NCBI GenBank assembly: GCA_019690055.1
Contig: JADGGF010000003.1
Coordinates: 1 to 32,242, forward strand
Direction of reading: 5' to 3'
Source of the DNA: Micromonosporaceae bacterium
GTDB taxonomy: Bacteria; Actinomycetota; Actinomycetes; Mycobacteriales; Micromonosporaceae
Length of the DNA: 32,242 nt
Program-made: the position numbers and the translations under genes
Part shown: one piece after another, positions 1,068 to 5,031 of the stretch
Layout: every line of letters begins with the position of its first letter
Position numbering within the stretch: the stretch's first letter is position 1
Notes under the pieces: generated by a model
The model's database searches: none
Seen by the model: the letters and a program-made list of their open reading frames with translations, nothing else
Told to the model about the DNA's origin: nothing

Positions 1068-1859
1068 GTGGCGGGACCGAGCGTGGGGCACCGGCGCCGG
1101 CCGGGCCGGTGGCAGGCCGTCCTCGGCATCGTCCTGATCCTGGCCGTGGTGCTGGTCGTCGCCGACCGGGCGGCCTCGGCGGTCGCGGCGAACCAGCTGC
1201 AGGCGCGGGTGGCCCAGGAGCTGCAGGCCCGGCAGGTCGGCTACGCCTCGCTGGACGTGACGGTAGCGGGCGTGCCGTTCCTGACGCAGGTCGCGCGGGG
1301 CCGTTTCGAGTCGATCAGCATCGACATGACCGATGTCCGGCTGCACTCCGGTGACCTCGAGGCGACGCTTCCGGCGCTACACGTGGTGGCCACGGAGGTG
1401 CAGGCCAACGCGGCGGCGGTGGCTCGTGGCGACGCCTCCGTCGTGGCCGAGCGGGTCGTCGGCCGGGCGGTCGTCTCGTACGCCGGGCTGACCGGCCTGG
1501 TCGACCTGCAGGAGTACTCCATCAGCGACGTGACGTTCGCCGAGAGCGCGGGCGCGTTGCGCGCGAGCGCGACCGTGAATGTCGTCGGGTTGAGCCTGCC
1601 CATCGAAGCGACGGCGGAGGTGTCGTTGCAGGACGGGCAGATCAACCTGCGGTTTCGGGACGCCGGGGCGGTGGGACTGGAGGTCCCGGAGGCCGCGTTG
1701 GGCATCCTGGACGCGCTGGCCAACGCGGTCATCGTCGTGGCCATGCCGCCCCTGCCCTTCGACATCACGCTCGACACGCTCGAGGTGACCCCGGGTGGGC
1801 TTCGCATCGGCGCCATCGGCCGCGACATCACGCTCGTCCAGCCGGCTCGCGCGGGGTGA
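1068..1859 (+). CDS. LmeA-like DUF2993 phospholipid-binding protein
   Basis: 263 aa from GTG 1068, preferred over GTG 1023 because AGGGGG lies 5-10 nt upstream (1057-1062). An Arg-rich N terminus (HRRRPGRW) is followed by one membrane anchor or signal segment (about residues 17-35). The rest is an extracytoplasmic beta-rich domain typical of DUF2993, with VTVAGVPFLTQVARGRFESI and repeated alternating hydrophobic strands. The family includes mycobacterial LmeA, a periplasmic lipid-binding protein that affects lipomannan maturation. Known lmeA genes sit near cysA2/sseC genes in mycobacteria, and the same neighbourhood occurs here. Substrate in this organism is unknown. Confidence 0.8.
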   Translation: MAGPSVGHRRRPGRWQAVLGIVLILAVVLVVADRAASAVAANQLQARVAQELQARQVGYASLDVTVAGVPFLTQVARGRFESISIDMTDVRLHSGDLEATLPALHVVATEVQANAAAVARGDASVVAERVVGRAVVSYAGLTGLVDLQEYSISDVTFAESAGALRASATVNVVGLSLPIEATAEVSLQDGQINLRFRDAGAVGLEVPEAALGILDALANAVIVVAMPPLPFDITLDTLEVTPGGLRIGAIGRDITLVQPARAG

Positions 1860-1987
1860 CGGCGACCAACCCGCGCGGTGCCACCACCCGCTGGCGGCGC
1901 CCTCGGCCCGCCCGACCGGGGTCGTCACTCACCGTCGATGAGTTCTCACCATCCGGTCAGCTTGGTGGCCATGGTGGCGGGCGCTGG

Positions 1988-1993
1988 TAGCCT
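1988..1993 (+). promoter_or_regulatory. -10 box of the leader peptide transcript
   Basis: TAGCCT ends 8 nt before the ATG at 2002, the spacing expected when transcription begins at or next to the start codon. No convincing -35 box at optimal spacing; TTGGTG at 1962 is 20 nt away. Confidence 0.5.
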
Positions 1994-2001
1994 GCTCTGT
2001 C

Positions 2002-2076
2002 ATGGGCACCCTGCTCACCAAGCGGCGCGCGGTCGACCTGTGCCGTGTGGCCACGTGCCTGTGTCCCCGCCACTGA
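2002..2076 (+). CDS. Cys-containing leader peptide for sulfur operon
   Basis: A 24-codon ORF (ATG 2002, TGA 2074-2076), too short for normal gene calling. It contains the core RAVDLCRVATCLC, with Cys at positions 14, 19 and 21 near the C terminus. This core is a recurrent pattern in small ORFs upstream of sulfur-assimilation and sulfurtransferase genes in actinobacteria. Leaderless Cys-rich uORFs before mycobacterial cysA2/sseC operons are known to act as cysteine-responsive attenuators. Here the ORF lies 200 nt before a CysA2-type gene and has a -10 box suited to leaderless start. Inference: when Cys-tRNA is scarce, ribosomes stall on the Cys codons and change folding or Rho access downstream. 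Confidence 0.85.
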   Translation: MGTLLTKRRAVDLCRVATCLCPRH

Positions 2077-2276
2077 GGGCGGTGTCGCGCGGCTGAACCG
2101 CGCGTGATCTCTATCCGACGATCGTTCGTCGTCTGTGCCCACGGAGATCCTCCCACTCGCCACGCTCAGCCTGATGCGGCTGGCCGTCCGCTCGGCTGCG
2201 TTCGTTCTGCAAATCCACGTTCATCCATCTCAATGACCATCCGTACCCGACCATCAGCACCAGCGAGGGAGTCAGC
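2077..2276 (+). promoter_or_regulatory. Structured C-rich leader (attenuator region)
   Basis: Just after the leader stop, CGCGCGG (2086-2092) pairs with CCGCGCG (2098-2104). A second hairpin, CGACGA (2116-2121) with TCGTCG (2126-2131), has a 4-nt loop. From about 2210 to 2262 the top strand becomes C-rich and G-poor, which is striking in this genome and resembles a Rho loading site. The region ends in the ribosome binding site GAGGGAG (2265-2271) of the sulfurtransferase gene. The attenuator role is inferred from the leader peptide and these structures; no alternative-fold calculation was possible. Confidence 0.55.
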
Positions 2277-3125
2277 ATGAGCCGCGAGAACGCGCTCGTC
2301 AGCGCCGACTGGGCCGAGAAGAACCTCGGCGCGGCCGGCATCGTCTTCGTCGAGGTCGACGAGGACACCACCGCCTACGACGCCGGACACATCCCCGGCG
2401 CCGTGAAGCTCGACTGGAAGAAGGACCTGCAGGACCCGGTGCGCCGGGACTTCGTCAACAAGCAGCAGTTCGAGGCGCTGCTCTCGGCGCGGGGCATCAG
2501 CAACGACGACCTCGTGATCCTCTACGGCGGCAACAACAACTGGTTCGCCGCGTACGCGTACTGGTACTTCAAGCTCTACGGCCACGAGAAGGTGCGGCTG
2601 CTCGACGGTGGCCGCAAGAAGTGGGAGCTGGACAACCGTCCGCTGACCACGGAGGTGCCGACGCGGCCGGCCACCACGTACGTCGCCGCCGAGCCGGACC
2701 TGTCCATCCGCGCCTTCCGCGACGAGGTGGTGGCGGCCATCGGAACCAAGAACTTGGTCGATGTTCGCTCGCCCGACGAGTACGCCGGTCGACTGCTGGC
2801 CCCGGCGCACCTGCCGCAGGAGGTGGCGCAGCGGCCGGGCCACATCCCGACCGCGATCAACGTTCCCTGGTCGAAGGCCGCCAACGAGGACGGCACCTTC
2901 AAGTCCGACGAGGAACTGCGGGCCCTCTACGAGGCGGCCGGTCTCGACGGGTCCAAGCCGACCATCGCCTACTGCCGGATCGGTGAGCGCTCGTCGCACA
3001 CCTGGTTCGTGCTGCGGGAGCTGCTCGGCCACCAGGACGTGAAGAACTACGACGGTTCCTGGACCGAGTACGGCTCGCTCGTGGGCGTTCCCGTGGTGCT
3101 CGGCGACCAGCCCGGCACGGCCTGA
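2277..3125 (+). CDS. cysA2: Thiosulfate sulfurtransferase (tandem rhodanese)
   Basis: 282 aa with two rhodanese domains, about residues 6-125 and 145-275. The C-terminal domain carries the active-site loop CRIGERS with catalytic Cys233. The N-terminal domain has LYGGNNNW at the equivalent loop and lacks the Cys, as is normal for this family. It would transfer sulfane sulfur from thiosulfate or another donor to cyanide or protein acceptors in the cytoplasm. The sequence closely resembles mycobacterial CysA2/CysA3 (for example the segment WFAAYAYWYFKLYGHEK). ATG 2277 has GAGGGAG 5 nt upstream. sseC follows after 17 nt, as in mycobacteria, so the two are cotranscribed behind the Cys-containing leader peptide. 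Confidence 0.95.
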   Translation: MSRENALVSADWAEKNLGAAGIVFVEVDEDTTAYDAGHIPGAVKLDWKKDLQDPVRRDFVNKQQFEALLSARGISNDDLVILYGGNNNWFAAYAYWYFKLYGHEKVRLLDGGRKKWELDNRPLTTEVPTRPATTYVAAEPDLSIRAFRDEVVAAIGTKNLVDVRSPDEYAGRLLAPAHLPQEVAQRPGHIPTAINVPWSKAANEDGTFKSDEELRALYEAAGLDGSKPTIAYCRIGERSSHTWFVLRELLGHQDVKNYDGSWTEYGSLVGVPVVLGDQPGTA

Positions 3126-3142
3126 ACTACTGGAGGATGTCC

Positions 3143-3499
3143 ATGTCTGTGAGCACGACCTCCCCCGCCGCGGGGCTCGCCTCCGCCGCCGACGCGAGCT
3201 GCGGCGCCCCGGCGCAGGACCTGCCCCTGCCGTCGAGCGTCGATCTGACCAAGGAGACGGTGATCAGCGGCGTGGTGACCGTGGGCGACCAGCCGGTCCC
3301 CGGCGCCTACGTGCGGCTCCTCGACGCGACCGGAGAGTTCGCGGCTGAGGTGGTCACCTCGGCCGCCGGCCAGTTCCGGTTCTTCGCGGCGCCGGGCACA
3401 TGGACGCTGCGGGCGCTGTCCCGCGCCGGCACCGGTGACATCCAGGTGACGGCCGACCGCGGCATCACCGAGGTGACGCTGGCCCTGGCCGCGGCCTGA
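3143..3499 (+). CDS. sseC: SseC-like DUF1416 protein
   Basis: 118 aa. ATG 3143 is chosen over ATG 3137 because GGAGG at 3132-3136 abuts the first ATG but is 6 nt from the second. The core matches the SseC/DUF1416 family: SSVDLTKETVISGVV, then a beta-sandwich-like carboxypeptidase-regulatory fold with YVRLLDATGEF and FRFFAAPGTWTLRALS. SseC is coupled to CysA-type sulfurtransferases in many actinobacteria. A role in sulfur transfer is assumed but no catalytic residues are evident, apart from a single Cys near residue 20 of the variable N terminus. It is the last gene of the operon and is followed by a strong hairpin. Confidence 0.9.
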   Translation: MSVSTTSPAAGLASAADASCGAPAQDLPLPSSVDLTKETVISGVVTVGDQPVPGAYVRLLDATGEFAAEVVTSAAGQFRFFAAPGTWTLRALSRAGTGDIQVTADRGITEVTLALAAA

Positions 3500-3524
3500 C
3501 CGTACGGTCACATCCGGGCGCCGG

Positions 3525-3560
3525 CATCAGTCCGGGGGCTGGCACCGATCCGAGGGCTGG
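3525..3560. repeat. 18-nt tandem repeat, two copies
   Basis: Two adjacent imperfect 18-mers (3525-3542 and 3543-3560), each starting CAYCRRTCCG and ending GGGCTGG, lie between sseC and its terminator hairpin. Part of a window-wide pattern of short tandem duplications. Confidence 0.65.
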
Positions 3561-3562
3561 TT

Positions 3563-3599
3563 CGTGGGAGCCCGACGGTCCGCCGTCGCGGCTCCCACG
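3563..3599 (+). terminator. Strong terminator of the sulfur operon
   Basis: CGTGGGAGCC (3563-3572) pairs with GGCTCCCACG (3590-3599), and inside it CGACGG (3573-3578) pairs with CCGTCG (3583-3588) around the tetraloop TCCG. That gives 16 base pairs with a single bulged C at 3589. There is no T-tract. It lies 63 nt after the sseC stop. Confidence 0.75.
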
Positions 3600-3721
3600 A
3601 GCATGCCGGCCCGTCGCGGGCGTCCGCGACCGTACGCCGTACCCGTCGGGAGCTTCGGTGACGCCCGTCATGGCTGCGGTGCATGGCGCGTCGGCCCGCC
3701 CGGGGTCGGCGCAGCCCGTGG

Positions 3722-4629: not shown

Positions 4630-4995
4630 TCAGTACACCAGGGCCTGCGCGCCGTCGGCGGTGATCTCCTCAACGAACGTGGTCGATCCGGCGATCCGGA
4701 TGCCCGGGATCACGGCGTCCGCGGTGATCTGGCGTCGCGCCGCGCATTGCGTGCACAGCGTGACGGTGCCCGCCTCCAGTACGGCCGCGAGCAGATCCGG
4801 CAACGGCGCGGCGTGCGGGAGCGTGAACGTCTCGGCTCGACCGGGCAGCGCGAACCACGACGCCTCCCCGGTCAGCCACAGTGAGACGCTGATGCCCGAC
4901 GCGGCCGCCGTGGCGGCTACCGTGAACGCCTGGGAGCAGCGCTCGGGTGCGTCGGCACCGGCCGTCACCTTCACCACCAGGGACCGTGTCGCCAT
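4630..4995 (-). CDS. DsrE/DsrF-like family protein
   Basis: 121 aa. ATG at 4995 is preferred over a TTG 18 nt upstream because TAGGCT lies 7 nt before it, the leaderless spacing seen elsewhere here. The sequence fits the small DsrE-like alpha/beta fold: an opening strand SLVVKVTAGADAPERCSQAF, a central SGISVSLWLTGEAS, and a late strand TVTLCTQCAARR whose Cys pair sits where sulfur-carrier DsrE proteins carry their active Cys. Such proteins are proposed to bind or relay sulfur, which fits the nearby sulfurtransferase genes, but function here is an inference. Transcribed divergently from the small genes at 5039-5210. Confidence 0.8.
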   Translation of the reverse strand: MATRSLVVKVTAGADAPERCSQAFTVAATAAASGISVSLWLTGEASWFALPGRAETFTLPHAAPLPDLLAAVLEAGTVTLCTQCAARRQITADAVIPGIRIAGSTTFVEEITADGAQALVY

Positions 4996-5002
4996 GGGGT
5001 CC

Positions 5003-5031
5003 AGCCTAGGCAATGCCGGCCAGCCTAGACT
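5003..5031. promoter_or_regulatory. Divergent leaderless promoters
   Basis: On the minus strand TAGGCT (complement of 5003-5008) lies 7 nt before ATG 4995. On the plus strand TAGACT (5026-5031) lies 7 nt before ATG 5039. Both boxes sit in a repeated CAGCCTAG (5002-5009 and 5021-5028). The two predicted start points are only about 44 nt apart, so their -35 regions overlap. Confidence 0.55.

Follow-up and report, generated by a model that had tools for sequence, protein, structure and literature searches.

A Ms5788A-type cysteine-rich leader ORF and a candidate attenuator upstream of cysA2-sseC in Micromonosporaceae

The leader ORF and its operon

The window, which is the whole stretch of 32,242 nucleotides analysed here from a Micromonosporaceae bacterium, carries a short upstream ORF (uORF) followed by a sulfurtransferase operon. 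The following features were found at this locus:

1988 to 1993, + strand: TAGCCT, a -10-like box 8 nt 5' of the ATG of the uORF, predicted to give a leaderless start
2002 to 2076, + strand: leader peptide ORF of 24 codons (MGTLLTKRRAVDLCRVATCLCPRH)
2041 to 2043, + strand: Cys codon 14 (TGC)
2056 to 2058, + strand: Cys codon 19 (TGC)
2062 to 2064, + strand: Cys codon 21 (TGT, a rare codon)
2265 to 2271, + strand: Shine-Dalgarno (SD) sequence of cysA2, GAGGGAG
2277 to 3125, + strand: cysA2-like rhodanese sulfurtransferase (Pfam PF00581)
3137 to 3499, + strand: sseC-like DUF1416 protein (Pfam PF07210)

The stop codon of the uORF lies 200 nt upstream of the cysA2 ATG at 2277, and both this distance and the 24 codons with three Cys codons agreed exactly with the original prediction made from the DNA letters. 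The ORF scored 53.6 bits against NCBIfam NF042933, the Cys-rich leader peptide of the Ms5788A family (curated cut-off of 45), and 39.8 bits against NF042934 (cut-off of 27), and it is placed 5' of a cysA2 sulfurtransferase operon, as are the leaders described by NF042933. Judged by these profiles, the ORF is far above chance as a Ms5788A-type leader peptide and is a member of a leader family already annotated by NCBI. In mycobacteria, ribosome profiling demonstrated that the uORF preceding cysA2/Msmeg_5788 is occupied by ribosomes (Shell 2015, PMC4633059), and for M. smegmatis an attenuation that responds to cysteine was reported (Canestrari 2020, doi 10.1111/mmi.14498, as cited in passages of PMC13236596, PMC9094748 and PMC9031893). 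The window shares with this family the peptide core LTKRRAVDLCRVA, the Cys codons near the end of the ORF, the sulfurtransferase operon and the predicted leaderless start.

The leader proved to be nearly universal in the family, since matches to NF042933 were found in 147 of the 151 sampled Micromonosporaceae genomes, in 42 of 44 genera, and in none of the 14 controls. Among 297 genomes drawn phylum-wide, 17 presented a match; Mycobacteriales were among them, as was a Streptomyces-like genus (names inferred). In the Micromonosporaceae loci that were read, cysA2 was found behind the leader and a TAnnnT box was placed 6-8 nt from the leader start, a box spacing present in 103/104 leaders versus 3.6% of shuffles. 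This conserved spacing is consistent with a leaderless transcript, whose start site is predicted. The profile scores, together with the conservation in Micromonosporaceae, therefore place the ORF in a known kind, the leaderless leader ORFs that would respond to cysteine, and it is very likely a cysteine-sensing leader ORF. The proposal of a Cys leader peptide, probably leaderless, upstream of cysA2-sseC, homologous to the mycobacterial one and preceded by a TAGCCT box, was supported, and for the window itself the result amounts mostly to annotating, in an uncultured lineage, a leader family that was already known.

In the search for CysA2 relatives, Micromonosporaceae ranked first, and the CysA2 tree grouped the window with divergent lineages in a clade of 12 members (support of 0.92), with locus L027 as its nearest, weakly supported neighbour. 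By eye, the window has no DUF4395-like gene between the uORF and cysA2, unlike the mycobacterial Ms5788A loci, and such a gene was observed immediately 5' of cysA2, as in mycobacteria, in some members of the family (L052, L066, L071 and L075, also by eye). In L045, what seems to be a decayed remnant of a DUF4395-like gene was seen by eye between the uORF and cysA2. A DsrE-family (sulfur-relay-like) protein is encoded near the operon of the window, at 4630-5013 on the - strand.

Cysteine codons and codon choice

Codons were counted in 105 distinct Micromonosporaceae leaders, and the cysA2 genes at the same loci were used for comparison. The position of codon 14 was occupied by Cys in 104/105 leaders, that of codon 19 in 95/105 and that of codon 21, the last one, in all of them. 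This last codon was always TGT, in which the leaders differ from the cysA2 genes, where TGC was used in 113/113 cases; the first and the second Cys codons were TGC in 90 leaders each. The invariant TGT is a new detail. A second preference was found at the Lys codon preceding RR in the LTKRR motif, which was AAA in 63/98 leaders, whereas cysA2 of the same genomes used 1% AAA and 99% AAG. Both preferences indicate that synonymous sites of the leaders are under selection. The AAA codon possibly keeps the leaderless 5' end free of structure. RNA pairing was considered as the cause of TGT and set aside: leaders contained the reverse complement of TGT plus the next codon in 35/74 cases when this was TGTCGC and in only 1/23 when it was TGTTGC, counts that make codon selection likelier than pairing. 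With TGT invariant in the leaders and TGC the sole Cys codon of cysA2 in these genomes, the tuning of the sensor by codon choice could be tested cleanly.

The spacing of the Cys codons differed by group, being C-x4-C-x-C in Micromonosporaceae, C-x7-C in Streptomyces-like leaders and a contiguous run in mycobacteria. The original prediction had taken the three spaced Cys codons of the window as a departure from the mycobacterial leader; given the counts above, this spacing is the norm of the family, so that of the earlier interpretation the homology of the leader peptide stands and the reading of the spacing as a departure was discarded. The contiguous Cys codons that define polycysteine leaderless attenuators were absent from the window and from the Micromonosporaceae leaders. 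The Streptomyces-like leader MKRQADLTKRRAVDLCRVAAMLCRPF, also placed before cysA2, has the core, the operon and the last Cys codon TGT in common with the window, but contains only two Cys codons.

An alternative is that the ORF encodes a small protein with a function of its own, or is a coding sequence devoid of any regulatory role. The peptide motif TKRRAVDLC was conserved as strongly as the Cys codons, which speaks for this alternative; however, the position of the ORF, its Cys content, its link to the operon and its unvarying last codon point to regulation in cis, and the mycobacterial homologue is described as a cis regulator in passages of PMC13236596 and PMC9031893. This alternative is considered very improbable.

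Predicted RNA structures between the uORF and cysA2

The region between the end of the uORF and the SD sequence contains the following elements in the window:

2067 to 2082, + strand: P1, candidate hairpin across the uORF stop (2067-2071 with 2078-2082; -9.4 kcal/mol)
2077 to 2088, + strand: 5' arm of P2, candidate antiterminator, pairing with 2176-2180 and 2183-2189 (12 bp; -20.8 kcal/mol)
2086 to 2104, + strand: perfect 7-bp hairpin
2116 to 2131, + strand: perfect 6-bp hairpin, within a longer stem (2106-2112 with 2143-2149)
2167 to 2208, + strand: terminator-like hairpin (stem 2167-2198; -15.1 kcal/mol) with the U-containing tail CGTTCGTTCT
2176 to 2189, + strand: predicted 3' arm of P2, within the terminator-like stem
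2184 to 2262, + strand: C-rich, G-poor linker

The two perfect hairpins after the uORF stop had been noticed beforehand and are indeed present. A perfect hairpin of at least 7 bp arose in 5.7% of shuffles, and two perfect hairpins like those of the window in that stretch in 0.3%. What relatives conserve is the hairpin across the uORF stop together with the partners competing with it, and not the hairpins at 2086-2104 and 2116-2131. The comparative alignment that had been suggested as a check recovered conserved Cys codons and covarying helices in relatives, but not these two hairpins as the conserved parts.

The whole leader of the window did not fold better than its shuffles (z of +0.82), and an unusual overall stability was discarded. 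P1 reached a z of -1.2 in the window, with a median of -2.6 over all leaders, and P2 was not stronger than in shuffles (z of -0.4). The post-stop arm finds its best partner within the terminator-like hairpin, and P2 would, by predicted pairing, disrupt the stem at 2167-2198. A terminator-like match was found in 1.3% of shuffled leaders and in 5/104 natural ones, the window included, which indicates that the terminator is not conserved. For the window, P1, P2 and the terminator were predicted from a single sequence, its genus being represented by one genome in the sample, and they weakly suggest the layout of a classical attenuator, in which antiterminator and terminator would exclude each other.

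A predicted structured RNA in Micromonosporaceae relatives

Competing and covarying helices were found in an alignment of the leaders of 57 relatives. In this alignment, an arm located just 3' of the uORF stop has two possible partners, the uORF end (P1) and a conserved block further downstream (P2); this block can alternatively pair further 3' (P3), and the P3 loop can pair with a later segment (P4), an arrangement that is probably a pseudoknot. P1 and P2 have one arm in common and P2 and P3 overlap by three bases, so that the helices compete. The covariation of P2 was 0.122 versus 0.069 in shuffled alignments (0/500), and that of P3, its inner stem and P4 was 0.163 versus 0.132 (0/500), with double changes at 11 pairs; the pairs were chosen from these same related sequences, so that the counts are not independent events and the comparisons with shuffles are inflated by relatedness. 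P1 showed weak column covariation because its register shifts, and its support came from the individual sequences, as given by the median z above.

A covariance model built on P3/P4 retrieved only one of the 297 phylum-wide genomes, which was a member of Micromonosporaceae. In the window, its best score was 5.8 bits, which is the chance level, and no match was found in the window's own genome. No covariance model of the Rfam leaders and riboswitches (T-box, SAM and others) matched positions 1700-3600 of the window, and in five relatives only three matches were obtained, all below the gathering score and from unrelated families; the identity as an Rfam riboswitch or T-box was discarded for the window and these five relatives.

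Ribosome-binding site or transcription

In the mycobacterial type of translational attenuation, reported for M. smegmatis by Canestrari (2020, as cited in PMC13236596 and PMC9031893), the ribosome-binding site of cysA2 is occluded by leader RNA and becomes free once a ribosome stalls at the Cys codons. In accordance with this mechanism, 23/27 poly-Cys leaders, taken as a positive control, had the best partner of the cysA2 SD sequence overlapping their Cys tract, versus 29/99 Micromonosporaceae leaders; this contrast is suggestive only, considering that the Fisher p of 2e-7 is uncorrected for relatedness and that overlap is easier in the shorter poly-Cys leaders. The distance from uORF to gene is 200 nt in the window and 189 nt in the family median, and most poly-Cys leaders have a shorter one, of about 90-145 nt. 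By eye, GCGAGGGAG at the ribosome site of the window is also a possible pairing partner of the segment CTCCCACTCGC (2151-2161). However, the best partner of the SD sequence in the window misses the Cys tract, unlike in the mycobacterial Ms5788A leaders, and pairing between SD and leader was not enriched in duplex energy, with a z of -1.0 in the window and a median of +0.46 over all leaders. The predicted SD accessibility over the leaders, computed for half of them with 10 shuffles each, equalled that of shuffled leaders, and masking the RNA to mimic a stalled ribosome left it unchanged. In the window, with 100 shuffles, the SD sequence was predicted to be more accessible than in 95% of shuffled leaders (0.39 versus 0.21), and a simulated stall did not free it. 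The sequestration of the ribosome-binding site that characterizes polycysteine attenuators was thus not predicted for the window, anti-SD pairing was left unsupported by either measure, and translational attenuation is considered unlikely at this locus.

The long C-rich segment had led to the suggestion of a Rho-dependent mechanism, in which Rho would load on the C-rich, G-poor stretch past the uORF stop and, if neither a stalled ribosome nor P2 stood in its way, terminate transcription. The unusual composition was confirmed: by C minus G, the best 70-nt segment of the stretch (2184) ranked among the top 0.8%, and the segment poorest in G (2187) was equalled by only 0.03% of the 70-nt segments taken from the two strands of the 32 kb. 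C exceeds G in relatives too, a C-rich, G-poor region is what a Rho attenuator calls for, and most relatives are devoid of a U-tract terminator. In M. tuberculosis, moreover, early termination was reported to be shaped by Rho and translated uORFs (D'Halluin 2023, as cited in PMC13236596). On the other hand, translation, too, would lead one to expect G-poor unstructured linkers 5' of a ribosome site, and the terminator-like hairpin of the window lies just 5' of the C-rich stretch. Rho is a candidate here, and its participation is considered unlikely.

Proposed mechanism and relation to known attenuators

The reading preferred here, with moderate confidence, is that the leaderless ORF serves as a sensor of Cys-tRNA and regulates cysA2-sseC in cis through a switch among P1, P2 and a stop structure. 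When cysteine is plentiful, the ribosome would read to the stop codon and depart, and P1 would fold over this codon, permitting the folding of the downstream stop structure (the hairpin 2167-2208 in the window, P3/P4 in most relatives), such that little cysA2 mRNA would be completed. When Cys-tRNA is scarce, the ribosome would stall at codons 14-21 and block P1, and the post-stop sequence would then pair with its downstream partner in P2, allowing expression of the operon. The target of attenuation would probably be transcription, and not the ribosome site. Against this model for the window stand the failure to detect the RNA element of the relatives in it and the scores of P1, P2 and SD pairing, each insignificant alone.

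Classical amino-acid attenuators of transcription (trp, leu and ilv type; also ilvB1 of M. tuberculosis, in the account given by PMC13236596) have regulatory codons in a short ORF and competing helices in common with the window, whose terminator-like hairpin also resembles theirs. Unlike them, the relatives do not conserve a U-tract terminator and present instead the probable P3/P4 pseudoknot. The RNA switch behind the leader in Micromonosporaceae seems to be built differently from the mycobacterial one. We tentatively propose, as a possibility that falls somewhat short of probable, that an undescribed Micromonosporaceae RNA (P1/P2/P3 with the P4 pseudoknot), which is not in Rfam and was unseen outside the family in the sample, replaced the mycobacterial anti-SD switch behind the same leader peptide, with the rare UGU as its last sensor, and that the lineage of the window swapped again, to a hairpin terminator. 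The same sensor peptide apparently being wired to different RNA switches across actinobacterial families, attenuator evolution becomes directly testable.

Two further short ORFs were observed. A second Cys-rich leader candidate with a GTG start, MFTATEVLLVVRRHVDYRRVCSAVCGRC, occurs in the window's own genome (C538:6457-6513, - strand; L003, 1489-1575), about 105 nt 5' of a cysH-like gene (PAPS reductase, named by eye), and scored 18.4 bits, below the NF042934 cut-off. A short ORF of the RRRHVDYGRV type with one Cys codon (TGT) was found in the same genome (C461:11092, + strand; L005, 1489-1569), about 160 nt 5' of a gene resembling a winged-helix regulator.
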